DNA of 49,253 nt. Origin: Acrocarpospora catenulata (GTDB lineage: Bacteria > Actinomycetota > Actinomycetes > Streptosporangiales > Streptosporangiaceae). The notes under the pieces were generated by a model. That model saw only the letters and a list, made by a program, of their open reading frames with translations. It had not been told where the DNA came from and searched no databases. Positions 24,589 to 40,566 of the stretch are shown one piece after another. Location: NCBI RefSeq assembly GCF_018476525.1, contig NZ_JAHCST010000068.1, positions 1 through 49,253 on the forward strand, written 5' to 3'. Positions within the stretch are counted from its first letter, which is position 1; each line of letters begins with the position of its first letter. A program made the translations under genes and the position numbers.

Positions 24589-27168
24589 CTATGGCATCAG
24601 CAACTCGCGCAGGACGTAGGGCATGATGCCGCCGTGCCGGTAGTAGTCCGCTTCGCGTGGGGTGTCGAGGCGGAGGCGGGCCGGGAAGGTGATCTCGTTG
24701 GCGGTGACGGTCAGGGTTGGCGGAATTCGGCTGGAGGTGAGTGAGGCGAGGCCGTGGATGGTGATGACTTCGCGGCCGGTGAGGCCGAGTTCTTCGGGGC
24801 CCTGGCCGGGGAGGAACTGCAGCGGGAGGATGCCCATGCCGACCAGGTTCGAGCGATGGATGCGTTCGAAGGACTTGGCGATGACGGCCTTCACGCCCAG
24901 CAGCGCGGGCCCTTTGGCGGCCCAGTCGCGGGAGGAACCGGCGCCGTAGCCTTCTCCGGCGATCACCACGGCGGGGACCGAGGCCGCGTGATAGGCACGA
25001 GCGGCGTCGTAGACGCTGGTGAGCACGCCGTCGGAGAGGAAGTTCGGGGTGCGGCCACCCTCGGTCCCGGGGGCGAGCCGGTTACGCAGGCGGACGTTGG
25101 CGAAGGTTCCGCGCATCATGACCTCGTGGTTGCCGCGCCGGGAGGCGTAGGTGTTCAGTTGGGGGCGTGGCACGCCGAGTTCGGTGAGGTAGCGGCCGGC
25201 GGGGCTGGTCGGCAGGATGGCCCCGGCCGGTGAGATGTGGTCGGTGGTGATGAAGTCGTCCAGCATGACCAGCACGCGGGCGCCGGTGATGTCGGCCGGA
25301 GGCGGAGGTTCCGGCGGCATGCCGTCGAGGTAGGGGGGCCGGCGCACGTAGGTGGAAGCGGGGTCCCAGGGGAAGGTGGCCGAGCCGGAGACGTCCAGAC
25401 GCTGCCATCGAAGGTCTCCTTCGAGGACGTCGGCGTAGGCGCGGGTGAACATCCGCGGGCGGATCACCTGCTCGATGACGTCGCGAATTTCCTCCGGCGT
25501 GGGCCACAGCTCGTGCAGGTAGACGGGCCGGCCGGTGTCGTCGCAGCCGAGGGGCTCGGTGGTGAGGTCGAGGTCCACCGTGCCGGCGATCGCGTACGCG
25601 ACGACGAGCGGGGGAGAGGCCAGGTAGTTGGAGCGGACCTCGGGCTGGATGCGGCCCTCGAAGTTGCGGTTGCCGGACAGGACGGCGGCGACGTCGAGGT
25701 CGTGCTCGGCCACCGCCCGCGACACCTCGTCGACGAGCGGCCCGGAGGCGCCGATGCAGGTCATGCAGCCGAAGCCGGCCAGGGTGAAGCCGAGCCGCTC
25801 CAGGTACGGGGTCAGCCCCGCTTCGGCGTAGTAGTCCATGACGACCCGCGAGCCGGGCGACAGGGTGGTCTTCACCCATGGCTTGGCCCGCAGCCCGCGT
25901 TCGGCCGCCTTCTTGGCGAGCAGCCCGGCGGCCACCATGACGGAGGGGTTGGAGGTGTTGGTGCACGAGGTGATGGCGGCGATGGCGACGGCGCCGTGCC
26001 CGATCTCCTGGCCGCTGTCCGCCAGCCGCGCCCGTACGGGTGGGTGGGCCTGGGCGCGAAAGGCGGCCTTGGCCGCGTCGAGCGGGATGCGGTCCTGCGG
26101 CCTGCGCGGACCGGCGATGGACGGGACGACACCGGCCAGGTCGAGGTCGAGGTCGGCGGTGTAGGCGGGCGGACGGTCGGGGTCGTGCCACAGCCCCTGC
26201 GCCTTGGCGTAGGCCTCGACCAGTTCGGCGTGGTGCGCGTCGCGGCCGGTGAAGCGCAGGTAGCGGATGGTTTCCGCGTCGATGGGGAACAGCGCGGCGG
26301 TGGAGCCGAACTCGGGGCTCATGTTGGAGATGGTGACCCGGTCGGTGACCGGCAGCGCGGTGACGCCTGGCCCGTGGAACTCCACGATCTTGCCGACCAC
26401 GCCGTGCCGCCGCAGCAATTCGGTGAGCGTCAGCACGAGGTCGGTCGCGGTCGTGGCGGGCGGCATGTCGCCGTGCAGGCGCACCCCCACCACGTCGGGC
26501 ACCAGGATGGAGACCGACTGGCCGAGCATCGCCGCCTCGGCCTCGATGCCGCCGATGCCCCAGCCGAGCGTGCCGAGGCCGTTGACCATCGTGGTGTGCG
26601 AGTCGGTGCCCAGGCACAGGTCCGGGTACGCCTCCTCGCCGTCCCGCATGACCACGCGGGCCAGATGCTCGACGTTGATCTGGTGCATGATGCCCTTGCC
26701 CGGGGGCACCACGGTGAAGTCGCGCAGTGAGGCCTGCCCCCAGCGCAGGAATCGGTAGCGTTCGGCGTTGCGCTCGTGCTCGAGTTCGGCGTTGCGCGCC
26801 AGGGCGTCAGGCCGGCCGAAGACGTCGGCGATGATCGAGTGGTCGACGACCAGCTCGGCGGGGACGGCCGGGTTGACGCGGCCGGGGTCGCCGCCGAGCG
26901 CGGCCATCGCGTCCCGCATGGCGGCCAGGTCGGCGAGCGCGGGCACGCCGTTGGTGTCGTGCAGGAACACCCGCGCGGGGTGCAGGTCGACGGCCGCGGT
27001 CCGTTCGGCGTTCGGCTCCCAGCCGGCCACGGCCCGCACCTGCTCGGCGGGCGCGCCGTGGCGCAGCAGGTTCTCCAGCATGATGCGCAGGCTGTAGGGC
27101 AGCCGGGCGGCGGCGTTGACGGGGTGGATGCGGTAGCGGCGGGACCCCACCGTGAGGAAACCGGTCAC
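24589..27168 (-). CDS. acnA: Aconitate hydratase (AcnA type)
   Basis: From GTG 27168 the protein has 859 residues, slightly short for AcnA (about 890-930). All expected motifs are present: [50 protein letters not shown] and [12 protein letters not shown] (the three [4Fe-4S] cysteine ligands), [11 protein letters not shown] and the swivel-domain arginine motif [13 protein letters not shown]. It interconverts citrate and isocitrate or a related substrate. The GTG start overlaps the upstream gene's stop by 4 bp, which decides it over the start 20 codons upstream. As the last gene of a catabolic operon with no citrate-cycle neighbours, it may serve a pathway-specific isomerisation. Confidence 0.95.
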
Positions 27169-27470
27169 GAGTCCTGCCCTTGCAAGGAGACGGGATGGCA
27201 GAAGGTGTTGCGGTGATCTTCGACGCACTCCTCGGCCACCCGGCGCCAGACGGCGTAGTGCGGCGCGGCGCGGTGCTCGGTGTAGAAGGCCGCTTCGTCG
27301 CGGTAGATCTCGTACAGCAGGAACCGGTGCGGGTCCTCGTCGCTGCGGAGCACGTCGAAGCGGAGGCAGCCGGGCTCCTGGCGGCTGGCCAGCGCGTTGG
27401 CCTGGATGCCGTCGAGGAACGCCGCCAGCCGGTCGGGCCGCACCTGGAGGTTGACGATCACGACGAACAT
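27165..27470 (-). CDS. Antibiotic biosynthesis monooxygenase (ABM)-domain protein
   Basis: A 101-residue single-domain protein with the ABM ferredoxin-like pattern: [20 protein letters not shown], then [19 protein letters not shown], then [16 protein letters not shown] and HYAVWRRV. Relatives include quinol monooxygenases and LsrG, which acts on phosphorylated autoinducer-2 derivatives. It overlaps the upstream Ldh2 gene by 13 bp and the downstream aconitase by 4 bp. Given the sugar-phosphate character of the operon, an LsrG-like isomerase role is as likely as oxygenation. Confidence 0.85.
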
Positions 27471-28516
27471 GCGGCCACCATCCACTCGGGCAGCGGGATC
27501 CCGCACGCGCCGGCCAGCCGTTCCAGGGCGCGCAGGGTCCGGTCGGGCAGTCGAACCCCGGCGGTGGCCGCTGTGGCGGCGTTGCGGTCCTCGATCTCGC
27601 CGGGGTAGAAGATCTCGTCGAAGCCGGGCGCGAGTGGCACGGCCTTGACGCGGTCGATGAGGTCGTCGAGCCGCCGGGCGTAGTCGCCGGGGTCGGCCAC
27701 GGCGTCGAGGCGGAGGGCCAGCAGCAGATGGCCGCAGCCGCTGCGGCGGTCGGGCACGTACGGACCGGTCACGTCGGTGGCGTAGGAGCTCCCGGTGAGC
27801 ACCCCGGAGAGCATGTCCATCATGAGGGAGATGCCGTACCCCTTGTGCCCGGCCATGGGCAGGATGAGCCCGTCGATGGCCGACCGCGGGTCGGTGGTGG
27901 GGGTGCCGTCCGCCGCCTGCGCCCAGCCTTGCGGGATCGGCTGTTCCCGTTCCAGCGCGGCGTAGATCTTGCCGCGGGCCACCGTGGTGTTGGCGATGTC
28001 CAGCACGACCGGACCGCGTCGGCCGCCGGGGACCGCGATGGACCACGGGTTGGCGCCCACGGCCTTCTCCCGGCCACCCCAGGGCGCCATGGCGGGACTG
28101 CCGTTGGTGGTTAGGACGGCGACGCAACCCGCTTCGGCGATCATGCGGGTGAAGTAGGCGGCGGTGCCGAAGTGGTTGCTGTTGCGGACCGCCACCACGC
28201 CGACGCCGTGCGCGCCCGCGCGGCGTACGGCGTCGCGGGCCGCGTGGGCGGTCACGACCTGGCCGACGCCGTCCTGGCCGTCAAGTACGGCGACGGCGCC
28301 GCCGTCGATCACGGTCGCCACCTCGGTCGCCGCACGCATGGCGCCGGAGCGCAGCCGGGCGGCGTACCACTCCAGGCGCAGCATGCCATGTGAGGGGTGT
28401 CCCCACATGTCGGAGGTGACCAGGCTGTCGGCCACGAGGGCCGCGTCCTGTTCCGGGACGCCGAGTGAGGCCAGGACCGCGGTCCCGAAAGCGATCAGCT
28501 CTGGCGGATGGATCAT
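27458..28516 (-). CDS. Ldh2/malate-type NAD(P)-dependent dehydrogenase
   Basis: A 352-residue member of the malate/lactate/ureidoglycolate dehydrogenase family. Characteristic segments are [40 protein letters not shown] (the catalytic histidine), then [19 protein letters not shown] and [16 protein letters not shown]. It oxidises a 2-hydroxy acid to a 2-oxo acid. The ATG at 28516 overlaps the OtnC stop (ATGA), which fixes the start. In this operon it is a candidate for the first oxidation of an acid-sugar substrate. Confidence 0.92.
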
Positions 28517-29124
28517 GTGAGGCTCCTGGCCTGGTCGGGCGTGAGTGGGCGGATGGGGCGGTCGCGCAGCAGCAGCCACAGCCGTGCCGTCTCCTCCAGT
28601 TCCTCCACCGCGTCGGCGGCGGAGCCCAGGTCGCCGCCCGCGACGATGGGTCCGTGGTTGGCCAGCAGCAGGGCGTGTGCCGTACGGGCGGCTCGTTCGG
28701 CGATCGGTCCCAGCGCCGGGTCGCCCGGCGCGTGGTAGGGCAGGAGCGGCAGCCGCCCGACGCGCATCACGTAGTAGGCGGTCAGCGGCGGCAGCGCGTC
28801 GTCCGGGTCCAGGCCGTCGTGGCAGGACACGGCGACCGAGTAGGTGCTGTGCAGGTGGACCACCGCGCCGGCGTCCGGGCGGGCCCGGTAGACGGCCGCG
28901 TGCAGGAACGCCTCCTTGGAGGGGCGGGGCCCGGTCAGGTGCTCTCCCGTCAGGCTGACGAGCGACAGGCCATCGGGCGACAGGTCACCGAGCGAACCGC
29001 CGGTGGGTGTGATCAGGAAGCCGTCCCCGGTGCGGGCGCTGATGTTGCCGGTACGGCCGTGCGTCAGGCGCCGGTGGAACAGGGATGCGCCCAGCTGCGC
29101 GATCTGGAGGGATATTTCGGTCAT
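28513..29124 (-). CDS. otnC: Class II aldolase family, 3-oxo-tetronate 4-phosphate decarboxylase-like
   Basis: A 203-residue class II aldolase/adducin domain protein. It shows GRTGNISARTGDGFLITPTG, the acidic catalytic position in RPSKEAFLHAAVY, the zinc histidines in VVHLHSTYSV and a third in LLLANHGPIVAG. Directly downstream of an OtnK-type kinase, it is expected to decarboxylate 3-oxo-tetronate 4-phosphate to dihydroxyacetone phosphate, as established for OtnC. It overlaps the kinase by 4 bp and the Ldh2 gene by 4 bp. A fuculose-phosphate aldolase role is possible but less likely in this context. Confidence 0.88.
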   Translation of the reverse strand: MTEISLQIAQLGASLFHRRLTHGRTGNISARTGDGFLITPTGGSLGDLSPDGLSLVSLTGEHLTGPRPSKEAFLHAAVYRARPDAGAVVHLHSTYSVAVSCHDGLDPDDALPPLTAYYVMRVGRLPLLPYHAPGDPALGPIAERAARTAHALLLANHGPIVAGGDLGSAADAVEELEETARLWLLLRDRPIRPLTPDQARSLT

Positions 29125-30338
29125 GGTGCTTCCACGGCTTGGACGAGCAGGTCGGGCCGGCCGAAGTTGCCGGACTTCAGCAGCAGCGCCAGGGGTGGGT
29201 GGCCGGTGGTGAGCAGCCACGGCACGCCCGGGTCCGCCTCGCCGCCCACCACCGCCCCGGTCACCCCGAGCGCGTTGACCACGGCCCCGGAGGTCTCACC
29301 ACCGGCGACGACGATGCGGCGGGCGCCGAGCTGGGCGGCGCGGGCCGCGACAGCCGCCAGCGCCTGCTCCAGGATCTCGGCCGAGCCGGGCGAGCGCTCC
29401 TCGGGCGGGGCCGAGGAGTAGACCATGACCTGGCCACTCCCGCCGAAGTGGGTCTCCAGCCAGTGGATGGCCTTTCCTGCCAGGTCACCTCCGGCCGGGT
29501 CGAGCCGGTGGGAGGGCATGTGTTCCCTGGCGCGCGCCACCTGCTCCAGGGTGGCCGCCGAGCAACTGCCCGCCAGCACCACACCCGGCCCCGACGGAAG
29601 AACGGGCAGGTCGTCCCGGACGGGCGTGCGGCTCGCCGCCAGGGCTCCTGCCGCGCGGGCCAGCCCAGCCGCTCCGGTGAGGACGGGAAGGTGCGCGGCG
29701 GCGCGGGCGACGACGTCGAGATCACGGTCATCGACGGCGTCGGTCACGGCGTAGCGGACGCCGCGCGCCTCCAGCTCGTCCAGCGCGGCCCGCACCGCGT
29801 CCTGGCCACGGGCGATTGTCTGGTGCGCGACCAGCGCGACACCGTACTGGGTCTGCGCGCCGAGCACGCGGACCAGGTCGGGATCGGTCATGGGGGTGAG
29901 CGGGTGGTGCCGCATCGGCGACTCGGACAGCAGCCGGTCGCCGACGAACAGGTGGCCCTGGTAGACCGTGCGGCCGTGTTCCGGCGCGGCAGGGCAGACG
30001 ACGGTCAGCCGCTCCCCGGCCGCCTCGGTCAGCGCGTCGGCGACCGGGCCGATGTTGCCCTCGTCGGTGGAGTCGAAGGTGGAACAGTACTTGAAGTACA
30101 CCCGCCGAGCGCCCAGCCCGGTGAGCCGGTCCCGCGCGGCCAGCGACGCGGCCACGGCCTCCCGCGCCGGTGCCGAGCGGGTCTTGAGCGCGACGACGAC
30201 GGCGTCGCAGTCCGGTATGTCCACGCCAGGCGGTGGCGTGCCGAACAGCAGGACCGTGCGCAGTCCCGAACGGCGCAGGGCGGCTGCCACGTCGGTGCCG
30301 CCGGTGTAGTCGTCGGCGACGCAGCCGAGCACGGTCAT
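29121..30338 (-). CDS. otnK: 3-oxo-tetronate kinase (DUF1537 family)
   Basis: A 405-residue, full-length four-carbon acid sugar kinase. The N-terminal substrate domain begins VLGCVADDYTGGTDVAAAL and has RVYFKYCSTFDSTDEGNIGP. The C-terminal nucleotide domain shows VVAGGETSGAVVNALGV, LLTTGHPPLALLLKSGNFG and ends shortly after. It phosphorylates the 4-hydroxyl of a 3-oxo-tetronate with ATP. The start overlaps the racemase-like gene (ATGA) and the end overlaps OtnC by 4 bp, so kinase and decarboxylase are coupled. A degenerate kinase of another subfamily lies at 3993-4630. Confidence 0.93.
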   Translation of the reverse strand: MTVLGCVADDYTGGTDVAAALRRSGLRTVLLFGTPPPGVDIPDCDAVVVALKTRSAPAREAVAASLAARDRLTGLGARRVYFKYCSTFDSTDEGNIGPVADALTEAAGERLTVVCPAAPEHGRTVYQGHLFVGDRLLSESPMRHHPLTPMTDPDLVRVLGAQTQYGVALVAHQTIARGQDAVRAALDELEARGVRYAVTDAVDDRDLDVVARAAAHLPVLTGAAGLARAAGALAASRTPVRDDLPVLPSGPGVVLAGSCSAATLEQVARAREHMPSHRLDPAGGDLAGKAIHWLETHFGGSGQVMVYSSAPPEERSPGSAEILEQALAAVAARAAQLGARRIVVAGGETSGAVVNALGVTGAVVGGEADPGVPWLLTTGHPPLALLLKSGNFGRPDLLVQAVEAP

Positions 30339-31009
30339 GCCGGCTCCTCGCGGGAGGCCGGCGGCAGCCACGCCGCGCGCAACGTCCGCGCCGCCGTGAG
30401 CGGCGGGCTGAGGACCGGGACCCCGAGGCGATCGGCCAGCTCGGCGTGGACCGGGCTGATGGAGTACTGCCCGAGCAGCACCAGCTCCACGCCGTCGAGA
30501 CGGGGCTCGGCGGCCCGCGCCAGCGCGCCGACCAGGTCGGGCCAGTCGCGGGCGGACGCCGCCGCGGCGGCTCCCGGCGCCGCGACCGCGCTCACCTCGA
30601 CCCCGCCGGCCGCTTCCGTCAGCCGCCGCGCCGAGTCGGCCGCGGCCGACTCGAGCGAGCCGAGCAGCAGGACCCTGCCCGGACGACGCCGCGCCACCTC
30701 GGCGAACATCGCCTCGTCCGATCCCGTGACCGGCACGTCGCAGGTCCGCCGGGCGAGTTCGGCGACCGGGCCGTACATCGAGCACGACAGGAGCACGGCG
30801 TCGGCGCCGCCGCGTACCGCGTAGTCGATGAGGGCGAGCATCCGGCGCGTCAGCGCGGGTGTCATGCCCCCGGCCGCATCCGCCTCGGTCACCAGCCGGT
30901 CGTCCAGCAGGTGCCACGCGGTGGCCTCGGGGAACCCTTCGCCGAGCCCGTCGGCTGCCGGTTCCATGGAGGCGGGGGTGGCGTTGACGACCGCGACCGT
31001 GGGCCTCAT
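30335..31009 (-). CDS. Asp/Glu/hydantoin racemase-like protein
   Basis: A 224-residue protein of the aspartate/glutamate racemase superfamily. The first catalytic-cysteine motif is clear, DAVLLSCSMYGPVAELAR, and VPVTGSDEAMFAEV follows. In the second half, where two-cysteine racemases carry the other cysteine, the sequence is LVLLGQYSISPV, so that cysteine is missing. It may be a one-cysteine racemase, an isomerase or decarboxylase (maleate isomerase and arylmalonate decarboxylase are relatives). Both ends overlap neighbours by 4 bp. Confidence 0.85.
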   Translation of the reverse strand: MRPTVAVVNATPASMEPAADGLGEGFPEATAWHLLDDRLVTEADAAGGMTPALTRRMLALIDYAVRGGADAVLLSCSMYGPVAELARRTCDVPVTGSDEAMFAEVARRRPGRVLLLGSLESAAADSARRLTEAAGGVEVSAVAAPGAAAAASARDWPDLVGALARAAEPRLDGVELVLLGQYSISPVHAELADRLGVPVLSPPLTAARTLRAAWLPPASREEPA

Positions 31010-32082
31010 CGCGTCCTCTTGAGGTCGGCCGCCACGGCCTCGGCGAACTCACGGGTGCCCGCCGTGCCGCCCATGTCCCTGGTGCGGGTGCCGGCGCGGA
31101 CCGTGCCGGCGACCGCCGCTTCGATCAGCGCCGCGGCCTGGGTCAGGGCGGCGTCCTGGTGGCGGGCGCCGAGCCAGTCGAGCAGCATGGCGCTGGAGAG
31201 GATCATCGCGATCGGGTTGGCCACGTCCTGCCCGGCGATGTCGGGGGCGGAGCCGTGGGCGGCCTGGGCCATGGCGCGCTCGTGGGAGGCGTTGATGGAG
31301 GGGGCGATGCCGAGTGATCCGGCGATCTCGCCCGCCAGGTCGGACAGGATGTCGCCGAACATGTTCTCGGTGACGATCACGTCGAAGTCGTTCGCCCGCC
31401 GTACCAGGTGGACGGTCATGGCGTCGATGTGGAAGTCGTCCACCTCGACGTCCGGGTAGCGGGCGGCGACCTCGCGGCAGACGTCGCGGAACATGCCGGT
31501 GGTCAGCTTCAGCACGTTCGCCTTGTGCACGATGGTGAGCTTTCCGCGCCTGCGGGCGGCCAGCTCGAACGCCGCCACGGCGATCCGCTCGACCGCTGGC
31601 CGAGTGATGATGCCCATGGCGATGGCCACGTCGGGGCTGGGCATGAACTCGCCGCTGCCCTTGTAGGTGCTGCGGTCGGCGTAGAAGCCCTGGGTGTTCT
31701 CCCGGACGATGACCAGGTCGGTATGGGGGACGATCGCGTAGGCGCCCTCGAAGGCCTTGGCCGGCCGGATGTTGGCGAACAGGTCGAAGTGCTTGCGGAT
31801 GGTGCCACTGGGGTTGAGCCTGGAGCGGTGCGGTTCCGGGTACGCGGCGCTGTCGTGCGGGCCGAGCAGCCAGGCGTCCAACTCGGCGAGCGCGGCCAGC
31901 GTCGACTCCGGCACCGCGTCGCCGTGGGCGTCGATGGCCGAGGCGCCCAGCGGCAGCCGCACCCACTCCACCGGCGGCGCGCCCACCGCGGCGAGTGCGG
32001 CGTCCAGCACCAGTACGGACGCGGGGACGATCTCGGGGCCGATGCCGTCACCTTCGAGTACGCCAAGACGGTAGGAAGTCAC
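31006..32082 (-). CDS. Isopropylmalate/tartrate-type hydroxyacid dehydrogenase
   Basis: From GTG 32082 the protein has 358 residues and the full beta-decarboxylating dehydrogenase pattern. Seen are LEGDGIGPEIVPASV, the substrate-binding region NPSGTIRKHFDLFANIRPAK, VIVRENTQGFYADR, IVHKANVLKLTTGMF and the metal-binding ENMFGDILSDLAGEIAGSLG. VRENTQGFYADR places it nearer tartrate/D-malate dehydrogenases than LeuB. It probably oxidises a 2-hydroxy (or 2,3-dihydroxy) acid with NAD, with or without decarboxylation. Its start is 14 bp from the ABC ATPase stop. Confidence 0.93.
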   Translation of the reverse strand: MTSYRLGVLEGDGIGPEIVPASVLVLDAALAAVGAPPVEWVRLPLGASAIDAHGDAVPESTLAALAELDAWLLGPHDSAAYPEPHRSRLNPSGTIRKHFDLFANIRPAKAFEGAYAIVPHTDLVIVRENTQGFYADRSTYKGSGEFMPSPDVAIAMGIITRPAVERIAVAAFELAARRRGKLTIVHKANVLKLTTGMFRDVCREVAARYPDVEVDDFHIDAMTVHLVRRANDFDVIVTENMFGDILSDLAGEIAGSLGIAPSINASHERAMAQAAHGSAPDIAGQDVANPIAMILSSAMLLDWLGARHQDAALTQAAALIEAAVAGTVRAGTRTRDMGGTAGTREFAEAVAADLKRTR

Positions 32083-32096
32083 GGGGGATACGTCCT

Positions 32097-33206
32097 TCAG
32101 TGGGAGACGGTGAGGAGTGCTTCGGCGTCCTCGGGCAGGACGTCGGTGGTGGGGTAGACGAGGCAGGCGGACGGGTCGGCGAGCAGGGTGACCTCCCCCG
32201 TCAGGCCGGCGCGGTTGCTCTCCACCTGGATGACGTGGTCGCCCAGGCGCAGGTCGTACTCGTAGCGGGAGCCGATGTAGGAGCCGGTGAGCACCTGGGC
32301 GGTCAGCACGTTCACGCCGGCGGGGGCGGTGCGGCCCTCGGGCAGGATTTCCAGCCGTTCCGGGCGGATGGCGACGCTGACCCGCCGGCCGTCGCCGGCC
32401 GCTCCGGGCAGGACGGCCAGGGTCTGCCCGGTGCAGTCGAGCCGCACCTCCGCCTGGCCGGTCACGGTGCCGGTGAGGAAGTTGCACCGGCCGACGAAGG
32501 CGGCCACCCGCGCGGTCGCGGGCGTCTCGTAGATCTCCTTGGGGGTGCCGATCTGCACCATGTCGCCCTCGGACATCACCGCGATGCGGTCGCTCAGGGC
32601 CAGCGCCTCCTCCTGGTCGTGGGTGACGTACACGGTGGTGATGCCGAGTTCCGCCTGCAGCCGCTTGAGCCAGGCGCGGGCCTGCTCGCGCAGCTGCGCG
32701 TCCAGGTTGGACAGCGGCTCGTCCAGCAGGAGCACGCTGGGGGAGTAGACCAGCGCGCGGGCGAGCGCGACGCGCTGCTGCTGGCCGCCGGAGAGCTGGT
32801 GGGGGTAGCGGTTCTTCAGTTCGGCCAGGCCCACCTTGGCCAGGGACTCGGTGATCAGCTCGTCCTGCCTGCGCCGGTCGACCTTGCGGATCCTGAGCGG
32901 CATGGCGAGGTTCTGGGCGACGGTCAGGTGCGGCCACAGCGCGTACGACTGGAACACCATGCCGAGGTTGCGGCCCTCCGGCGGAACGAACGTGCCGGAG
33001 TCGACGAAGGTGGCCGGGCCGACCGCGATGCTTCCGCTGGTCGGCCGCTCCAGCCCGGCGATGCACGCCAGCGTGGTGGACTTGCCGCAGCCGCTGGGGC
33101 CCAGGAGGGTGAAGAACTCCCCGTCGGCGATGGTGAAGGTGATGTCGCGCAGTACCGCGTTGTCCCCGAACTGCTTGGACAGGCGGGAAACCTTGACCTC
33201 AGGCAT
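32097..33206 (-). CDS. ABC transporter ATP-binding protein (PotA/FbpC type)
   Basis: A 369-residue ATPase with Walker A LLGPSGCGKST (about 34-44), Q-loop MVFQSYALWP, signature LSGGQQQRVALARAL, Walker B VLLLDEPLSNLD and the switch histidine in VYVTHDQEEAL. A TOBE-like C-terminal domain follows from about residue 235. It energises the fused permease immediately upstream, with which it overlaps by 8 bp. Importers of this class move ferric ion, polyamines, phosphonates or sugar phosphates. Confidence 0.95.
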   Translation of the reverse strand: MPEVKVSRLSKQFGDNAVLRDITFTIADGEFFTLLGPSGCGKSTTLACIAGLERPTSGSIAVGPATFVDSGTFVPPEGRNLGMVFQSYALWPHLTVAQNLAMPLRIRKVDRRRQDELITESLAKVGLAELKNRYPHQLSGGQQQRVALARALVYSPSVLLLDEPLSNLDAQLREQARAWLKRLQAELGITTVYVTHDQEEALALSDRIAVMSEGDMVQIGTPKEIYETPATARVAAFVGRCNFLTGTVTGQAEVRLDCTGQTLAVLPGAAGDGRRVSVAIRPERLEILPEGRTAPAGVNVLTAQVLTGSYIGSRYEYDLRLGDHVIQVESNRAGLTGEVTLLADPSACLVYPTTDVLPEDAEALLTVSH

Positions 33207-34947
33207 CGTTGCGTCCCTTGAGAAGTAGTCCGGCGAGCCCGACGAAGGTGGCCGTGATGGCGATCTGCAGGCTGGCCAGCGCGGCCACCGAGCCGGTGTT
33301 GCCCTGGACCCAGAGTTCGAGCATCGTGGTGCCGATGATGTTGGAGTCGGCCGAGCCCAGGAACACCGCCGGTGAGTACTCCTTGAGCAGCGTCACGAAG
33401 GTCAGGATCAGCGCTCCGGCGAAGGCCGGCCGCAGCAGCGCGGCCAGGATCCGGGTGAAGGTACGGACCCAGTCCGCGCCGGAGACCCGGGCCGCGTTGT
33501 CGAGCTCCCGGCCGATCTGCATGATCGACGGTGAGATGGAGCCGAACCCGCTGGGGAGCGCCCGCAGGCCGAAGCCGATGATCAACGCCCAGAGTGTGCC
33601 CTGAACCAGGGTGCCGAGGCCGAAGGGGGCGAAGGCCAGCGCCCAGAACAGGCCGATGCCGACGATGATGCCGGGCATCGCCTGCGGGGCGAGCGCCAGG
33701 TACTCCACCGCGCGGGCGAAGCGGAAGTCCGACCGCCTGGCCACCATCACCGCCAGCAGCGACAGCCCGCTGACCAGGACGGCGCCGATGGCGGCCACCA
33801 GGAGGCTGTTGACGATGGACTGCACGTAGACCGGATAGGTGAAGATCCGCTCGTAGTTCGCGCCGGTGAGGGTCCTGAACGGCGACTGCAGGGGGGTGAA
33901 CACCAGCGTGAAGGAGCGGAACACGAGCCCGCCGATGGGCACCAGGGCGCCCAGCACCACGTAGCAGGCGATGGCGGCCACGCTCACCCACTTCAGCCAG
34001 CCCAGGTCCAGGCGGCGTGGCCGGGTGGCCTTGCCCCGTACGGACACGAACCGCTGGGCGTTCTTCAGCAGCTTGGCCTGCAGCGCGACCAGGCTGACCG
34101 TGACCAGCAGGATGATCGCCGAGGCCGCGCCCAGCACCCCGTAGTCCGGGCTGATCGACTGCAGGCCGTTGCGGTACAGGAACGTGGAGAAGACGTCGAT
34201 GCCGACCGGCTGGCCGAACAGCAGCGGCACGCTCAGCGTCTCCACCGACATGCTGATCACCAGGATCGAGCTGTAGACGATGGGCGGCCGGAGCATCGGC
34301 AGGATCACCGAGCGCAGGATGCGCAGCGGGCCCGCCCCGCACACCTGGGCGGCCGCCTCCAGCGAGGCGTCGCTCTGGCGCAGCGCGTTGGCGCAGAAGG
34401 TGTAGACGATCGGGGCCAGCGCCACGGCCTCGGTGACCGCCATGCCGGGAATGGAGTACAGGTTCCACGGCAGGAAGCCGAGCATCCGCCGCACCTCGAC
34501 GCTGACGAACCCGGCCGGGCCGTAGATGGTGATCCAGCCGAAGCCCAGGATGAGCGAGGAGATGAAGAAGGGCCACTGCATGGCGGCCGCGAAGAGGCGG
34601 CCGCCCGGCAGCTTGGTGCGGACCACGACCACGGCCATCGGCACCGCGATGAGCAGGCTGAGCAGGGTGGTGAGCCCGGCGAACAGCGCGGTGTTGAGCA
34701 CGACGCGGCCGAATCCCGCCTCGGTGAACAACCGCACGTAGTTGTCCACGCTCAGGATGCCGCCCGCCTCGTACAACGGGCGGTCGAGGAAGGACTGGTA
34801 CAACGTCGGGACGACCGGCGCCAGCACCAGCACGGCCAGCAGGAGCAGTACGCCGTAGTGCAGCCAGCTCTCCCGGGCCAGCCCGAGGGGGCGGCGGTAG
34901 CGCGGCGGGGGATGCACCGCCGGACGAGGTGGGGACAGGGTGGTCAT
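33199..34947 (-). CDS. ABC transporter permease, two fused domains (FbpB type)
   Basis: A 582-residue protein with about 12 membrane segments, i.e. two binding-protein-dependent permease domains in one chain. Each half has an EAA-like coupling loop: EAAAQVCGAGPLRILRSVIL in the first and DNAARVSGADWVRTFTRILA in the second. Fused permeases of this kind are typical of the Fe3+/AfuB and 2-aminoethylphosphonate importer group. It lies between the binding lipoprotein and the ATPase genes and shares their operon. Confidence 0.95.
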   Translation of the reverse strand: MTTLSPPRPAVHPPPRYRRPLGLARESWLHYGVLLLLAVLVLAPVVPTLYQSFLDRPLYEAGGILSVDNYVRLFTEAGFGRVVLNTALFAGLTTLLSLLIAVPMAVVVVRTKLPGGRLFAAAMQWPFFISSLILGFGWITIYGPAGFVSVEVRRMLGFLPWNLYSIPGMAVTEAVALAPIVYTFCANALRQSDASLEAAAQVCGAGPLRILRSVILPMLRPPIVYSSILVISMSVETLSVPLLFGQPVGIDVFSTFLYRNGLQSISPDYGVLGAASAIILLVTVSLVALQAKLLKNAQRFVSVRGKATRPRRLDLGWLKWVSVAAIACYVVLGALVPIGGLVFRSFTLVFTPLQSPFRTLTGANYERIFTYPVYVQSIVNSLLVAAIGAVLVSGLSLLAVMVARRSDFRFARAVEYLALAPQAMPGIIVGIGLFWALAFAPFGLGTLVQGTLWALIIGFGLRALPSGFGSISPSIMQIGRELDNAARVSGADWVRTFTRILAALLRPAFAGALILTFVTLLKEYSPAVFLGSADSNIIGTTMLELWVQGNTGSVAALASLQIAITATFVGLAGLLLKGRNDA

Positions 34948-34968: not shown

Positions 34969-36111
34969 TCAGCGACCCAGCAGGCCGTTCCACTTGTCGG
35001 TGAAGGACTTGACCGCGGCGTCGTCGACCTTCGTGTACTCGGCGAGGATGACGTTGGCCTCACCCACGGACTTGACGAGCTCCTGGTAGGTGTGCAGCCC
35101 GCCCTCGGCCGGGATTCCCTCGCGGTAGGAGGTGAGCCCGCCCTCGGCCACCGCTCGCTGGCCCTCCTGCGACAGGACGAAGTCGACGAACAGCTTCGAG
35201 GTGGCGGGATGCGGCGCCTTGGCGGCCACGCCGATGCCGCGCGGCAGCGCGACGGTGCCGTCGTCGAGGAAGGAGATCGCCAGCAGGCCACCGCTCTTGG
35301 CCACCGCCGGGTACGCCGGAGCGGCGCTGACGAAGAACCCGGCCACGTACTCCCCGGAGGTGATCTTCTCCAGCTGGGTGCCGGACGAGGTCTCCGGCCT
35401 GGCCAGGGGGAGCACCGACTGCAGCGACGTCCAGGAGTCCGGGCGGGCCTCGGCGAAGGCGTGGGAGACGGTGAAGCCGAACGCGCCGCTGACGTCCCGT
35501 GCGGTGATCTTGCTCTGGTACTGGGCGGGGTCCTTGGCCAGGATCGCCGCCAGGCTCTTCAGCCCGGTCGGCTTCTCCGGCAGCAGCGAGGTGTTGTACG
35601 CGATCGACATCGGGTCGACCGACATCGCGTACACGTTCGGCAGCAGCTCGGCGAAGTCCGGCAGCCGGCCCTTCTCCGGGGAGGCGTACGCCAGGAGGGT
35701 GCCCGGCCTGGCGGCGAAGTCGGCCCACGCCTGGGCGGCGTTCGACACGACCAGGTCGGCCGGTGAGTTGCCCGTGGCCTGCTCGCTCAGCACGCGCTGG
35801 AACACCTCGTCGCTGTCGAGGTTGTTCGCCGCGATCTTCGTCACCCAGGGGTACTTCTTCTGGAAGTCGCGGAAGATCGGCGCCCAGTTCTCCTGGTCGG
35901 TGTTGGAGTAGATGGTGAGGGTGCCGCCCTCCTGCCTGGAGGTCTCGATCAGCTGGGCGTAGTCGCTCGGGTAGTACGACGGGGCCTGGCCGGTGGCGAT
36001 CGAGTTCGCCGGCGGTTCCGCCGCCGTCCCGCCCCCGCCACAGGCCGTGAGCAGGCCGAGCGCGAGTACGGCGACGCCGACGGCCCGGAATGTGGAGTGG
36101 AAGGTCGTCAT
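34969..36111 (-). CDS. ABC transporter substrate-binding lipoprotein (AfuA/Fe3+ type)
   Basis: From ATG 36111 the protein has 380 residues. A lipoprotein signal ends in the lipobox LLTAC, followed by a glycine-rich linker. The body matches the type II periplasmic binding fold of the AfuA group: GGTLTIYSNTDQENWAPIFR, then VFQRVLSEQATGNSPADLVV, and a C-terminal SKLFVDFVLSQEGQRAVAEG. The conserved tyrosine pair used for ferric iron is not evident, so an organic anion is the more likely ligand. It is the first gene of the ten-gene operon and its promoter contains one of two AGGTTATAAC boxes. Confidence 0.93.
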   Translation of the reverse strand: MTTFHSTFRAVGVAVLALGLLTACGGGGTAAEPPANSIATGQAPSYYPSDYAQLIETSRQEGGTLTIYSNTDQENWAPIFRDFQKKYPWVTKIAANNLDSDEVFQRVLSEQATGNSPADLVVSNAAQAWADFAARPGTLLAYASPEKGRLPDFAELLPNVYAMSVDPMSIAYNTSLLPEKPTGLKSLAAILAKDPAQYQSKITARDVSGAFGFTVSHAFAEARPDSWTSLQSVLPLARPETSSGTQLEKITSGEYVAGFFVSAAPAYPAVAKSGGLLAISFLDDGTVALPRGIGVAAKAPHPATSKLFVDFVLSQEGQRAVAEGGLTSYREGIPAEGGLHTYQELVKSVGEANVILAEYTKVDDAAVKSFTDKWNGLLGR

Positions 36112-36165
36112 GTGCTGTCCTCCTAGACCAGGCGAGGCTGTCCGCCGTCGCCTGCGATGGCGCAC

Positions 36166-36195
36166 ACTCTGCTTCGTTATAACCTATGACGTCAA
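36166..36195 (-). promoter_or_regulatory. Promoter and GntR operator of the import/catabolic operon
   Basis: On the minus strand TTGACG (36195-36190) is followed after 18 bases by CAGAGT (36171-36166), a plausible -35/-10 pair. The box AGGTTATAAC (36185-36176) fills the spacer. The same box occurs inverted 132 bp away in front of the GntR gene. Binding there would block RNA polymerase. Confidence 0.6.
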
Positions 36196-36290
36196 CCCCT
36201 CGTTTCCGGAATGTAACGCGATGAACATCCTTGATGCCTTATAGAGGTGGAAGGCAGCCCTGGTGGATATCTACCGGTAATGGTGGACAC

Positions 36291-36327
36291 TTGCCGACAG
36301 GGCGGGGAGGCGGTGTAGGTTATAACC
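36291..36327 (+). promoter_or_regulatory. Promoter and GntR operator of the gntR operon
   Basis: TTGCCG (36291-36296) and TAGGTT (36316-36321), 19 bases apart, could be -35 and -10. The palindrome GGTTATAACC (36318-36327) overlaps the -10 and lies 23 bases before the ATG, as expected for an autoregulated GntR gene. The rest of the 239-bp divergent intergenic region (36112-36350) contains a second near-palindrome, GGTGGATATCTACC, near 36262-36275. Confidence 0.6.
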
Positions 36328-36350
36328 GCTACCGACGAGACGGGACTGCG

Positions 36351-37049
36351 ATGAGTGAACCAGCGGCCGACCTCTACACGACCAAGGCGGACTACGCCTA
36401 CGTCCGTGTCAAGGAGCTGATCCTTTCCGGGGAGCTGCTTCCCGGCTCGGTCATCGCCCAGGCCCAACTGGCTCGCGGGATCGGCATCAGCACCACCCCC
36501 CTGCGCGAGGCCCTGCGCCGGCTCAAGAGCGAAGGACTGGTCGAACTCGACGCCCACCGCGACGCCCGCGTCGCACCTCTGGCCGCCGAGGAAGCCCGCG
36601 ACCTGCTCGAACTGCGCCGCTCGCTGGACCCGCTGGCCGTCGCGCTGGCCGCGGAACGCCGTACCAAGGCCGACATCGCGGCGATACGCGCCGCGGTCGA
36701 GGGCCTCAAGCCGCTCCCCGGCAACCCCGCCTACGAGCAGCTCGTCGCCCACCGCAAGTTCCACGCCGCACTCTACGGCGCCGCACACAACGACCTGCTC
36801 ATCCAGACCCTCGACAGCCTGTGGGACAAGGCCGACCGCTACCGCCGCTTCGCCCTGGAGATCGAGCGCGGTCAGGAGGAGCGCGACCGCAAGGCCGCCG
36901 AACACGAGGCCCTGGTGGAGTACGTGATCGCGGGCGACGCCGAATCCGCCGCCGCCGTCATGCGCGAGCACATCGACACCAGCCTCGGCGCCCAGGCCGC
37001 CTGGCGCCTGCGCAAGCTCCACCCCGGCCTGGACACAGGGGATGTCTGA
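36351..37049 (+). CDS. GntR-family regulator (FadR/FCD subgroup)
   Basis: A 232-residue protein with an N-terminal GntR winged helix: AYVRVKELILSGELLPGSVI, then STTPLREALRRLKSEGLVEL. An FCD ligand domain follows, with the metal-ligand-type histidines in AHRKFHAALYGAAHND and AEHEALVEYVIAGD, plus REHID near the C-terminus. FCD regulators commonly sense organic acids or sugar acids. It is divergent from the ABC/acid-sugar operon and the first gene of its own operon, overlapping the MFS gene by 8 bp. Confidence 0.95.
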   Translation: MSEPAADLYTTKADYAYVRVKELILSGELLPGSVIAQAQLARGIGISTTPLREALRRLKSEGLVELDAHRDARVAPLAAEEARDLLELRRSLDPLAVALAAERRTKADIAAIRAAVEGLKPLPGNPAYEQLVAHRKFHAALYGAAHNDLLIQTLDSLWDKADRYRRFALEIERGQEERDRKAAEHEALVEYVIAGDAESAAAVMREHIDTSLGAQAAWRLRKLHPGLDTGDV

Positions 37050-38190
37050 ACGCCGTCATCTTCTGATGGCGCACACGGTCGGCACCCAGGTGATCACCTT
37101 CGTGCTGCGCCCCAGCCTGTCCTACCGCGCGCTCGAACTCGACGTGCCGACGGCCTGGCTCGGCGTGCTCGGCGCCACCTTCGCCATCGCGCCGCTGCTG
37201 CTCGCCCTGCCCGCCGGCCACGCCACCGACCGCTACGGCGAACGCCGGATCGCGGTGGCGGGCGCACTCCTGCTCACCGCGTCCGCGGTCGCCTTCGTTG
37301 TATTCGGCCACACGATCGCCGGGCTGGTCCTGGCGGGTGTCCTGCTCGGCACCGGCCATCTGGGCAGCGTCATCGCCCAGCAGGCCCTGGTCGCCAACAC
37401 CACCGACCGCGGCCGCCACGACACCGCCTTCGGCTACTACACCTTCGCCGCCTCCCTCGGCCAGGCCGTGGGTCCGCTGCTGATCGCCGCAGTAGGTGGC
37501 GACGGCGCCATCCCCGACACCGACCGCATCTTTCTCTGGTCGTGCGTCCTGGGCCTGGTCCTCCTCGTGCTGGCCGCCCTGCTGCCGCCGAGACGCTCCG
37601 TTGCCCGTGGCCAGGTGGAGAGCGGCGAAGTGAGGACACTGCTGCGCCTGCCCGGCCTGGCCCACGCCCTGCTGACCAGCTGCGTGGTGCTGGCGGCGGT
37701 CGACATCACCCTGGTGTACCTGCCCGCGCTCGGCACCGAGCACGGCCTGACCGCGAGCGCCGTGGGTCTCCTGCTGACCGTCCGGGGTCTGGCCTCCATG
37801 GCCTCGCGCTTCTTCCTCGGCCGCCTCTCGCGCGCCGTCGGCCGACGCCGGCTGCTGGTCGTCAGCACCCTGGCCGCGGCCGCCGCCATGCTGCTCATCT
37901 CCGTGCCCATGCCGCTGTGGCTGCTGGCGGCACTGCTCCTGGTGGTCGGCTTCGGTCTCGGCGTCGGCCAGCCGCTGACCATGTCCTGGCTCGCCGAGTC
38001 CGCGCCGCCGGGAATGCGCGGCAGGGCCATGTCGCTGCGCCTGCTCGGCAACCGCACCGGCCAGCTCCTCATCCCCGGCGCGGCCGGCCTCATGGCGGCC
38101 GGACTCGGCACCGGCGGCGTCCTGTTCGCGACCGGCCTCAGCCTAGGCTGGGCCGGCGTGGCCGCCCGGCGGCTTCCCGTCGACCCCTGA
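37042..38190 (+). CDS. MFS transporter
   Basis: A 382-residue, 12-segment major facilitator. Signature pieces are [20 protein letters not shown] (motif A) and the matching loop [20 protein letters not shown] between helices 8 and 9. The protein is on the short side for MFS, with little N-terminal tail. The ATG at 37042 lies inside the end of the gntR gene; an alternative ATG is at 37066. Placement between gntR and the RraA-type gene suggests import of the pathway substrate or export of an intermediate. Confidence 0.92.
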
Positions 38191-38201
38191 AAGGTGCCAC
38201 C

Positions 38202-38675
38202 ATGACCGTCGTCACCGCTGATCTGTACGACGAACACGGCGACCGGCTCGACTCCTGCGACCTGCAGCTGAACCAGTACGGCGGCCGCCGCTCCTTCGCC
38301 GGCCCGATCGTGACCGTCCGCTGCCACCAGGACAACGCCCTGCTGAAGTCGGTGCTGTCCGAACCCGGCCAGGGCCGCGTGCTCGTGGTGGACGGCGGCG
38401 GTTCCCTGCACACCGCCCTGATGGGCGACATCATCGCCGGCCTGGCGGTGGCCAACGGCTGGGCCGGTGTGGTGGTCAACGGCGCGGTACGAGATGTCGC
38501 CGCTCTGCGCGAGCTGGACCTGGGCATCAAGGCGTTGGGCTCCAACCCGCGCAAGAGCGGCAAGCAGGGCACCGGCGAGCGCGATGTCCCGGTCAGCTTC
38601 GGCGGTGTCACCTTCCATCCCGGCGCGGAGCTGTACAGCGACGATGACGGCATCCTGGTCACCTTGTTGGATTGA
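38202..38675 (+). CDS. RraA-family protein, putative HMG/CHA-type aldolase
   Basis: A 157-residue protein matching the RraA fold: [58 protein letters not shown] and the substrate/metal loop [20 protein letters not shown]. Annotation as an RNase E inhibitor is traditional, but actinomycetes use many of these as class II pyruvate aldolases (4-hydroxy-4-methyl-2-oxoglutarate aldolase type) or oxaloacetate decarboxylases; the G-x20-R-D motif needed for that activity is present. In this catabolic operon the aldolase reading is preferred. Confidence 0.88.
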
Positions 38676-38692
38676 GTGAAAGAGAGGCCCTC

Positions 38693-39721
38693 GTGGTGGA
38701 GCCCCTGCGTCTGGCGCTGGTCGGATGTGGCCGGATCGCCCAGGTCGCGCACCTGCCGGCGCTGGAGAAGGCAGCCGGCGTCGAGCTCGTCGCCGTCGTT
38801 GATCCGAGTCAGGAGGTCGCTCGGGCCGTCGCGCGGCGCTACGGTGTGCCGGCCGCGTACACGGCCCAGGAGCAGGTGCTCGCCGACCCGGCGGTGGAGG
38901 CGGTGCTCGTCGCGGCGCCGGACCGGTTCCACTACCCGATCGCGGCGGAGGCGTTGACCGCCGGCAAACATGTCCTGGTCGAAAAGCCGCTGGCCGCCAC
39001 GTCCGCGGAGGCCGAAGCGCTGGTCGAACTGGTGGACCGGACCGGGTTGGTGCTGCAGGTCGGCGCGATGAAGCGGCACGACCAGGGCCTGCAGTACGCG
39101 CGGGGGTTCGTCGCGGAGCGGCTCGGTGAGGTCCGGTCCTTCAACGCCTGGTACCGCATCGGCGACCTGCGGCCTGGTATCGAGGCGACGCTGTTCCCGT
39201 ACGTCTACGCCGACCAGGCAGCCCGTGAGAGCGAGACGGCGTTCAAGGCGGATCGGCAGCGGTATCTGCTGGCCACCCACGGTGCGCACATCTTCGACAC
39301 GGTCCGGTTCCTGCTCGGCGATGTCGGGTCGGTCATCGCGCGGCATCGGCAGCACGGCCGGGACCAGGTCTGGCAGGTGCTGCTGACCATGGCGTCGGGC
39401 GCGATCGGCACCGTGAGCATCACCGTCGACGTGCCGGGCGTGCCGTCGGAGGGAATCGAGGTTTTCGGAGCGTCCGGCTCGATCCGGGTCGACACGCCGT
39501 TCCCCTTCTACCGGCAGGCGTCGAGCGTCCGGGCGTACGCCGACGGTGAGACCGTCATGCCGGAGCTGACCGACGGCGACGCCTACGAGCGGCAGGCCGA
39601 GGCGTTCGCACGAGCGGTCCGGGAGGGCAGCCGCCCGGTCCCGGACGTCCGCGACGGGCTGCACGCCATCCGCCTGATCGAAGCCACAGCGGCAGCCGAC
39701 GGCGAGGAGATCACGCTGTGA
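38693..39721 (+). CDS. Gfo/Idh/MocA-family oxidoreductase
   Basis: From GTG 38693 (AAAGAGAGG upstream; GTG 38696 is equally possible, TTG 38672 less so) the protein has 342 residues. The Rossmann start is LALVGCGRIAQVAHLPAL, followed by VLVEKPLAATSAEAEALVEL with the family EKP motif. The C-terminal substrate domain includes HGAHIFDTVRFLLGD, the position where these enzymes carry catalytic His/Asp. It should oxidise or reduce a polyol or sugar acid with NAD(P). It overlaps the downstream isomerase by 4 bp. Confidence 0.9.
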   Translation: MVEPLRLALVGCGRIAQVAHLPALEKAAGVELVAVVDPSQEVARAVARRYGVPAAYTAQEQVLADPAVEAVLVAAPDRFHYPIAAEALTAGKHVLVEKPLAATSAEAEALVELVDRTGLVLQVGAMKRHDQGLQYARGFVAERLGEVRSFNAWYRIGDLRPGIEATLFPYVYADQAARESETAFKADRQRYLLATHGAHIFDTVRFLLGDVGSVIARHRQHGRDQVWQVLLTMASGAIGTVSITVDVPGVPSEGIEVFGASGSIRVDTPFPFYRQASSVRAYADGETVMPELTDGDAYERQAEAFARAVREGSRPVPDVRDGLHAIRLIEATAAADGEEITL

Positions 39722-40566
39722 GCGGCGACCTGGCCAGCCGCCTCGGCATCTTCGCGCGTACCTTCGTCCGTGCCACCCCCACCGAGGTAGCCGCCGCGGT
39801 GGCGGGCGCCGGCTATGCGCTGGCGCACTGGAACTTCGCCGCGATCGGCCTGCCCACCCTCGCCGAGGGCGTGGACAGCGACTGTTTCGCCAGGGTGCGC
39901 GACGCCTTCGACGAGGTCGGCCTCGCCATCCCGAGCGTGTCGGCCACCTACAACGTGATTCACCCGGACGCCGCGCTTCGCGCACATCAGACCAGCCACG
40001 CGGTACGCCTGATCGGTCTGGCGCCCGAGCTGGGCGCCGATGTGGTCACGCTGTGCACCGGCACGCGAGACCCGGAGAACATGTGGCGTGCCCACCCCGG
40101 CAACACCGCTCCTGACGCGTGGGCTGACCTGCGCCGAACCCTGGAGCCCCTGCTTGAGGCGGCCAGTGCGGCAGGCGTAAGCCTGGGGGTGGAACCCGAA
40201 CCCGGCAACCTCGTCCGCGACGCGCCCACCGCCGCGCGGCTGCTCACCGAACTGGGTACGGACGCACCGATCGGCATCGTGCTAGACCCGGCCAACCTGC
40301 TCACCCCGGCGACCGTCGCCCGTCAAGACGAGATCATCGGCGAAGCGATCGACCTGCTCGGTGACCGCATCGTCGGCGCCCAGGCCAAGGACGTCGTCGT
40401 CTCCGGCTACGCCGCCGCCGGAACCGGAATGATGGACTACCCCGCGGTGTTCGCGCAGCTGGCCCGCATCGCCCCGGTGCCGCTGATCGTCCAGGACGCC
40501 GCTGAGGCGGACGCGGCACGGGTGCGGGCCGATCTGGTGCGCTGGCACGCTGCCGGTCCTGTTTAG
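39718..40566 (+). CDS. Sugar phosphate isomerase/epimerase (xylose isomerase-like TIM barrel)
   Basis: From GTG 39718 the protein has 282 residues and the AP-endonuclease-2/xylose isomerase-like TIM-barrel pattern. Seen are ALAHWNFAAIGLP, VVTLCTGTRDPENMW, a metal-ligand glutamate in GVSLGVEPEPGNLV, IGIVLDPANL with the metal-ligand aspartate, and IVGAQAKDVVVSG (histidine of the usual HxKD replaced by Q). OtnI, the 2-oxo-tetronate isomerase that feeds OtnK, belongs to this superfamily, so an equivalent role is attractive. It is the last gene of the gntR operon. Confidence 0.88.
   Translation: MSGDLASRLGIFARTFVRATPTEVAAAVAGAGYALAHWNFAAIGLPTLAEGVDSDCFARVRDAFDEVGLAIPSVSATYNVIHPDAALRAHQTSHAVRLIGLAPELGADVVTLCTGTRDPENMWRAHPGNTAPDAWADLRRTLEPLLEAASAAGVSLGVEPEPGNLVRDAPTAARLLTELGTDAPIGIVLDPANLLTPATVARQDEIIGEAIDLLGDRIVGAQAKDVVVSGYAAAGTGMMDYPAVFAQLARIAPVPLIVQDAAEADAARVRADLVRWHAAGPV

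Follow-up and report, generated by a model that had tools for sequence, protein, structure and literature searches.

Which compound is consumed by a gene island that combines an aconitase with the kinase and decarboxylase of tetronate breakdown? The island lies in a contig of Acrocarpospora catenulata (NZ_JAHCST010000068.1); the whole stretch of 49,253 nucleotides that was analysed is referred to here as the window, and the host genome comprises 10.3 Mb in 181 contigs. The initial annotation had described fifteen genes as one divergent catabolic unit for acid sugars and had guessed at a larger acid, such as hydroxycitrate, as the substrate. We give about an even chance to the reading that 13 of these genes form an inducible unit which takes up and breaks down an acid resembling citrate but with an added polar group, the most likely candidate being a hydroxylated tricarboxylate. 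The link to a substituted tricarboxylate is suggested by residues of the aconitase, by the kinship of the binding protein to the magnesium-citrate binder MctA and by three family arginines of the dehydrogenase. Gene content, synteny, conserved promoter sites, residue changes and family scores are read directly from the sequences, and all reactions as well as the DNA binding of the GntR regulator are inferred.

The gene families come from matches to Pfam and NCBIfam models, and the starts of the open reading frames were refined. The features are the following, with model scores in bits where given.

24589..27168, minus strand: AcnA-type aconitase (Acn) with the motif His-Asp-Thr (HDT; His70, Thr72; Ala675); TIGR01341 1150.8 against a cut-off of 945
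27165..27470, minus strand: ABM-domain protein (ABM), weakly LsrG-like; PF03992 76.9, NF007791 68.2 against a cut-off of 135
27458..28516, minus strand: Ldh_2-type 2-hydroxyacid dehydrogenase (Ldh2); PF02615 381
28513..29124, minus strand: OtnC, 3-oxo-tetronate 4-phosphate decarboxylase; NF043034 270.9 against a cut-off of 250
29121..30338, minus strand: OtnK, 3-oxo-tetronate kinase; NF043035 473.8 against a cut-off of 350
30335..31009, minus strand: Asp/Glu-racemase-family protein with one motif cysteine (Rac); PF01177 53.9 against a gathering score of 31
31006..32082, minus strand: Iso_dh-family dehydrogenase, expected to be decarboxylating, with an N-x-S loop (IsoDH); PF00180 315 against 27
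32097..33206, minus strand: ATPase of an ATP-binding cassette (ABC) importer; PF00005, TOBE_2
33199..34947, minus strand: permease of the ABC importer with two permease stretches; PF00528 matching twice
34969..36111, minus strand: substrate-binding lipoprotein (SBP), lipobox seen by eye; nearest solved relative MctA
36112..36350: divergent promoter region, separating the SBP and GntR starts
36176..36183: GTTATAAC, candidate operator copy 1, in a conserved block of the gap
36319..36326: GTTATAAC, candidate operator copy 2, in a conserved block of the gap
36351..37049, plus strand: GntR/FCD regulator (GntR); PF00392, PF07729
37042..38190, plus strand: major facilitator superfamily (MFS) transporter; PF07690
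38202..38675, plus strand: RraA-family protein, candidate class II pyruvate aldolase; PF03737, NF006875 227.5 against 136
38672..39721, plus strand: Gfo/Idh/MocA oxidoreductase (Gfo), a neighbour outside the conserved island
39718..40566, plus strand: xylose-isomerase-like TIM barrel (TIM), a neighbour outside the conserved island

All fifteen open reading frames and their families had been recognised correctly, and so had the tight junctions, with overlaps or gaps of 4-14 bp in both arms and a 21-bp gap as the single exception. From the promoter outward the minus arm runs SBP, permease, ATPase, IsoDH, Rac, OtnK, OtnC, Ldh2, ABM and Acn, and the plus arm GntR, MFS, RraA, Gfo and TIM. In the proposed route the ABC importer with its MctA-like binder, perhaps together with the MFS protein, would import the acid, which the HDT-type aconitase would dehydrate and rehydrate to an isocitrate-like isomer. 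The Iso_dh enzyme would oxidise and decarboxylate this isomer to a substituted 2-oxo acid, RraA may cleave a 4-hydroxy-2-oxo acid into pyruvate and a small aldehyde acid, and Rac, OtnK and OtnC would convert an oxo-tetronate into dihydroxyacetone phosphate (DHAP) and CO2.

The borders of the unit emerged from its relatives. When the Rac protein was searched against 345 genomes of the order (E ≤ 1e-10), matches were found in 29 genomes; besides the window's own, those of 65-86% identity came from 11 genomes, and the match in G185 was in two pieces. Twenty loci were fetched, namely the best matches of 18 genomes and some weaker ones, and eleven of them (L040-L050), spread over three genera (g1, g39 and g55), constitute the close loci. 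Counted by tblastn at ≥45% identity and any coverage, SBP, permease, ATPase, IsoDH, Rac, OtnK, OtnC, Ldh2, Acn and GntR were matched in 11/11 close loci, ABM in 8/11, and MFS and RraA in 7/11 each; Gfo, TIM and the three genes directly beyond the borders drawn in the initial annotation were matched in none of the 11. The ABM match in L040 has 38% identity, and a stricter listing omits OtnC and ABM in L046, whose OtnK is partial. The remaining nine fetched loci were only partial: Rac and OtnK occurred in L051, L053 and L056, Rac alone in four loci, Rac and IsoDH in L055, and Rac, IsoDH, OtnC and OtnK in a different order in L054. The TIM gene was matched in 5/297 genomes, the window's included, three of them in the same genus and each with an adjoining Gfo gene. 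In G002 the Gfo-TIM pair and the island are on different contigs, and G001 and G003 have the pair and no Rac match at E ≤ 1e-10. Because both genes are missing from all 11 islands and are paired elsewhere in the genus, we regard them as neighbours and not as members. Judged by synteny, the conserved unit is one of 13 genes, not 15; these 13 are kept together, but Gfo and TIM have to be taken out. Conserved synteny, on which the earlier proposal had staked itself, was found for the 13 genes in the 11 close loci. We concluded that the catabolic island is real and conserved, and probably co-regulated.

The aconitase passes the AcnA model, is below the AcnD model (TIGR02333; 807.8 against 1419.85) and retains the iron-sulphur and catalytic motif residues, as checked. 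Gln70, Phe72 and Gly675 were invariant in ten housekeeping-type rows (seven housekeeping enzymes, two encoded beside tcuAB and one from a Rhodococcus plasmid), and the island rows had His70, Thr72 and Ala, Ser or Pro at 675. Column 70 presumably corresponds to Gln72 of mitochondrial aconitase, in the active site, and IRP1 has Q-D-F at the same columns. In a larger alignment, which locus L248 entered as L263, HDT was present in 21 rows (the window and 20 others), and Gln70 was invariant in the 12 QD-type rows (nine QDF, two QDL, one QDM). When 342 genomes of the order were searched with the window aconitase (E ≤ 1e-250), 25 of the 28 best matches were HDT and three QD; this set leans to HDT because the query itself is HDT. 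The single AcnD row, from Duganella (TIGR02333 1779.8; prp-type neighbours by eye), reads HDI. AcnD-PrpF constitutes a 2-methylcitrate route (PMC5690661). 2-Methylcitrate has a methyl group where hydroxycitrate has a hydroxyl, and the exchange of Ile for Thr is suggestive in that it would fit this difference, in a comparison based on one AcnD row.

It could be argued that the aconitase is no pathway step at all and serves as an inhibitor-resistant isozyme, sustaining the tricarboxylic acid cycle while a citrate mimic is consumed. In favour of this, the genome has three aconitase-fold matches, the island copy included, with another AcnA that is QDF-type; the catalytic motifs are retained beside one altered conserved motif, and aconitase is inhibited by trans-aconitate (PMC11495376). 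However, the His is common to AcnD, a substrate-changed enzyme, and some HDT aconitases are found next to GntR and TctA-like genes with little else recognised, which suggests catalysis. We consider a mere protective role distinctly unlikely. In other genera of the family, eight such loci (L254-L259, L261 and L263) combine GntR and a TctA-like match with the HDT aconitase, and L260 has GntR only; IsoDH and OtnK were not matched in any of L254-L261 and L263. Perhaps these loci use tricarboxylates in the same way, reduced to its simplest form.

An aconitase tree was built without the motif columns. On it the HDT label needs four changes, a single change was never sufficient in 200 bootstrap trees, and the starred branches force at least two. 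A single clade of all 21 HDT rows was rejected by the approximately unbiased (AU) test (p 0.0047). Two origins of HDT are supported, with caution over the long row of Priestia, and more are possible.

The dehydrogenase, one of five Iso_dh matches in the genome, has the arginines R96, R106 and R127, which were invariant in 9 aligned proteins and in this family presumably bind both carboxylates of the malate moiety. Its N-x-S loop consists of Asn90 and Ser92, from which a few rows of the larger set differ; we take this to be the position where isocitrate dehydrogenase binds the gamma-carboxylate. The earlier label of a tartrate-type dehydrogenase did not hold, as the score with the tartrate dehydrogenase (TtuC) model TIGR02089 was far below its cut-off (251.7 against 470.4), and on this ground a tartrate pathway was rejected as the main explanation. 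The aconitase followed by IsoDH would turn hydroxycitrate into 4-hydroxy-2-oxoglutarate, which an RraA-type aldolase could cleave. A review cites isocitrate dehydrogenase making 4-hydroxy-2-oxoglutarate from Garcinia hydroxycitrate (PMC4945632). The guess of a larger acid was strengthened as far as a hydroxylated tricarboxylate is concerned, by residues, transporter kinship and comparison, but hydroxycitrate itself remains a plausible guess.

The nearest solved relative of the SBP was MctA, both by sequence (1.1e-35, 30% identity) and by fold (5.5e-24, TM-score 0.85 on the target; SBP model with a predicted local distance difference test score, pLDDT, of 84.5). MctA was solved with Mg-citrate (titles of PDB 7f6e-7f6u), and the SBP ligand is probably related to citrate. 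The best NCBIfam names for ATPase, permease and regulator were PhnT2, PhnU2 and phnR, as would be expected of an island for the use of phosphonates of the 2-aminoethylphosphonate type, yet all three were below cut-off (359.5 against 457.7, 123.6 against 593.25 and 87.4 against 271.5), and no known C-P cleaving family was found among the 15 genes by Pfam. The SBP, moreover, fits MctA better than Salmonella STM0429 (4r6y), which we take to bind aminoethylphosphonate. With the cut-offs not reached, the phosphonate explanation was rejected as very improbable.

The divergent gap of 239 bp is variable save two blocks, each of which, in the window, contains the palindrome GTTATAAC. From base composition 0.09 copies of this palindrome would be expected in the 49-kb window, and three are present, two of them in the gap. 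Among the close relatives 9/11 have two copies in the gap and 2/11 have one, with no further copy in the fetched stretches. That the island is divergent and catabolic, contains a GntR gene and has a shared promoter, which is conserved, was supported. A second type of locus (L169, L250, L251 and L252) has an HDT aconitase and IsoDH, with two GTTATAAC 27 bp apart directly before the aconitase; OtnK was not matched in the fetched stretches of these four. Since GTTATAAC is common to both types of locus, a common effector is suggested. L158 has one copy adjoining GntR, and none was present in L156, L254, L257 and L259. GntR would control both arms, probably by binding the two candidate operators. 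The third copy in the window (48275-48282) has flanks unlike those of the island sites and lies upstream of an open reading frame on the plus strand that starts at 48305 and runs off the contig; it is probably due to chance.

OtnK scored above its curated cut-off and OtnC narrowly above its own, so that both identities given in the initial annotation stood, and on these grounds DHAP is suggested as the product. The PF07005/SBD_N match of OtnK is the only one in 10.3 Mb. In Rac, Cys76 of the first motif was invariant in 11/11 aligned proteins, and the second motif was [QH]-[YFM]-S, with an invariant Ser and no Cys, in 11/11. The classical Asp/Glu racemase mechanism uses two cysteines, one in each half-site motif, and seems unavailable to Rac because the second is missing; we infer that Rac might act on an oxo-tetronate, either as an epimerase or as a keto-enol isomerase. 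The absence of an LtnD/EtnD-type dehydrogenase was confirmed: neither PF03446 nor PF01370, presumably the LtnD-type and DenD-type families, was matched among the 15 genes at E ≤ 0.001. The supposed membership of an OtnI-like TIM gene was not: besides its absence from the 11 islands, the gene at 39718 had no NCBIfam match at E ≤ 1e-5 and only a weak match to a single TIM protein linked to Rac (45% over 64 aa).

Could the island then serve a C4 sugar acid such as threonate or erythronate? Ldh2 would form a 2-oxo-tetronate, ABM or Rac would shift the keto group, and OtnK and OtnC would lead to DHAP, with IsoDH acting on tartrate and an incidental aconitase. The scores of OtnK and OtnC agree with this, and so do the other settings of the Rac-OtnK-OtnC trio, which, whole or in part, adjoins a 2-hydroxyacid dehydrogenase and an OtnI-like TIM gene (L056, L152) or an alpha-hydroxy acid oxidase (L202, L204). 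Nevertheless, the aconitase is found in 11/11 close islands and in islands of other phyla, the tartrate model is not reached, and kin of Ldh2 and ABM occur in IsoDH loci without a nearby OtnK (L067, L158). We regard a C4 sugar acid as an unlikely substrate. The trio, whole or in part, also adjoins an SAF-domain/FlgA-annotated protein and a tricarboxylate transporter; the enzymes beside it in these settings differ, and each would probably make a tetronate. Rac homologues were found without OtnK as well. As a general replacement of OtnI Rac was rejected, for it occurs together with an OtnI-like TIM gene in L056 and L152.

Some further proteins were noted around the trio. Between Rac and OtnC on an A. 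vitis plasmid, where OtnK would be expected, the annotation shows only a short nucleotide-binding fragment (L202:11263-11427). Small proteins of the substrate-binding-protein fold are encoded in Rac-OtnK-OtnC operons (L056:14794-15474, with matches in L151 and L152), and annotated copies in L202 (8767-9474) and L204 (7325-8026) may be kin to that of L056; the L056 copy, without a signal peptide by eye, may be an intracellular isomerase. A second, apparently signal-less kind lies near OtnK/IsoDH islands (L062:12942-13652, L063:683-1429, L064:14790-15524), in L063 adjoining a trans-aconitate methyltransferase. In several plasmid records Rac homologues (H12, H13, H85, H86, H95, H104, H105 and H109) bear the annotation 'arylsulfatase', apparently a propagated misannotation.

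Similar clusters were found in Proteobacteria, Bacillota and one fusobacterium. The one in A. pusense contains GntR, IsoDH, SBP, permease, ATPase, Rac, OtnK, OtnC, RraA and AcnA, in the gene order also seen in Aureimonas, and that of Shinella WSC3-e AcnA, GntR, IsoDH, ABC genes, Rac, OtnK and OtnC. In Rhizobium NXC24, with no AcnA in the stretch, TpiA follows OtnC, as expected for DHAP. Others were seen in Pantoea and Paraburkholderia sabiae, in Priestia (Rac, Ldh, IsoDH, RraA and AcnA; no OtnK in the stretch), in Ilyobacter (IsoDH, Rac, OtnK and a shorter aconitate hydratase), in G689 (AcnA, GntR, ABC, SSADH, cupin, IsoDH, Rac, OtnK, OtnC, Ldh and ABM) and in Mycolicibacterium (CitMHS-like transporter, IsoDH, Rac, OtnK, OtnC, Ldh2, ABM, SSADH and cupin; no Acn match). 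Kin of IsoDH adjoin tcuAB, tricarboxylate transporter, PrpF-type or citrate symporter genes.

A contig scan with IsoDH gave at least 80 loci, about 30 of them at ≥44% identity and the rest resembling ordinary Iso_dh. Neighbours within 10.5 kb were counted in 47 loci, hand-picked from more that were fetched and including several close kin. OtnK was present in 18, together with Rac in 16 and with Acn in 12 of these. In a quick IsoDH tree the OtnK loci and the SSADH/cupin loci interleave (16 changes, the least possible being 3), and in our reading the downstream modules look as if they had been exchanged around one dehydrogenase reaction. In another possible arrangement two independent pathways, for a tricarboxylate and a tetronate that co-occur in plant exudates, are merely placed under one regulator. 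IsoDH does occur with SSADH/cupin minus OtnK, and Rac-OtnK-OtnC where no IsoDH is annotated or matched; yet the island has only one ABC importer, the order IsoDH-Rac-OtnK is common to Ilyobacter, Mycolicibacterium and the window, and the combination recurs in several phyla. Two separate pathways therefore appear improbable, with a small chance at best.

Several points weigh against a hydroxylated tricarboxylate as the substrate. The main weakness is that we could draw no single substrate that fits both the aconitase/IsoDH and the OtnK/OtnC halves: the hydroxycitrate route gives a role to Acn, IsoDH and RraA and leaves OtnK and OtnC unexplained. The models of these two point to 3-oxo-tetronate, of which the hydroxy-2-oxoglutarate of the route is not an obvious source. 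A pentarate as IsoDH substrate, yielding 3-oxo-tetronate directly, 2-hydroxymethyl-tartrate or itatartarate as substrate, and glyoxylate plus a transketolase C2 unit as the 3-oxo-tetronate source were considered. Within 10.5 kb, 23/47 IsoDH loci had neither OtnK nor SSADH/cupin. Six MctA positions were mutated in the PDB series (S26, D28, S79, S164, T199 and Y221, numbering deduced from the mutant titles); the SBP keeps the D, has a similar S for T and differs at the others, so its ligand need not be citrate. The operons of GntR, aconitase and TctA would equally suit plain citrate or aconitate, and HDT is unnecessary for such a setting, since the QDL-type aconitase of L262 also has RraA, PrpF and TctA matches nearby. 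Convergence is only partly shown, because without Priestia one clade of the remaining 20 HDT rows was not rejected (p-AU 0.154) and in the first tree the placement of Priestia beside Duganella carried a warning that two long branches meet there. With a mean pLDDT of 68.5 and values below 50 at residues 64-81, the AlphaFold prediction for the aconitase was too poor for placing the changed residues.

D-erythronate and L-threonate are reportedly catabolised by OtnK-OtnC-OtnI with LtnD or DenD (Zhang et al. 2016). The island resembles that pathway in OtnK and OtnC, at equivalog level, and in the expected product DHAP; it differs in that the conserved unit has no LtnD/DenD-family dehydrogenase and no OtnI, and has IsoDH, aconitase, Rac, Ldh2 and ABM in addition. 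With the AcnD-PrpF route it shares an AcnA-like enzyme in which His replaces the conserved Gln, but it does not reach TIGR02333, has no prp genes and carries Thr where AcnD has Ile. TcuAB and TarA-TarB (PMC11495376) serve in the use of tricarballylate and trans-aconitate. Kin of IsoDH are found near tcuAB in Pacificitalea, and in Shinella, together with AcnA, near tcuAB, PrpF-type and tricarboxylate transporter genes; by Pfam, however, the island genes include no TcuA, TcuB or PrpF family, and the two Shinella aconitases beside tcuAB carry QDF, unlike the island. The MctA metal-citrate ABC system is alike in binding-protein fold and unlike in the probed positions, of which one is identical and one similar.

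No description of this gene combination was found in the open-access literature, to which the search was confined. A bolder proposal, which we hold to be possible though doubtful, is that HDT aconitases are an unrecognised class for tricarboxylates of the hydroxycitrate (2-hydroxylated) type, as AcnD is for 2-methylcitrate, and that the island would be the first genetically defined route by which an acid of this type reaches DHAP and pyruvate, through a step like that of isocitrate dehydrogenase and a 'racemase' with one cysteine. If this is true, the island supplies bacterial candidates for hydroxycitrate-type enzymes, a short sequence marker would separate one group from the proteins at present called AcnA, the aconitase site has been altered more than once, and OtnK and OtnC are tied to a substrate class beyond tetronates.

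Some further loci were noted. The plasmid of Shinella sp. WSC3-e (L208, L220) has both types of cluster, AcnA(HDT)-IsoDH-ABC-Rac-OtnK-OtnC and tcuAB-AcnA(QDF)-PrpF-Ldh-RraA. L055 and L071 share the order GntR-Rac-TIM-IsoDH, with a TIM family different from that of the 39718 gene and no OtnK matches nearby, and L055 has an adjoining CitMHS-like transporter. In L070 and L155 Iso_dh kin are clustered with an aconitase/IPM-dehydratase large subunit, in L070 also with a PEP-mutase-family protein, and these clusters possibly serve a phosphonate-type biosynthesis.

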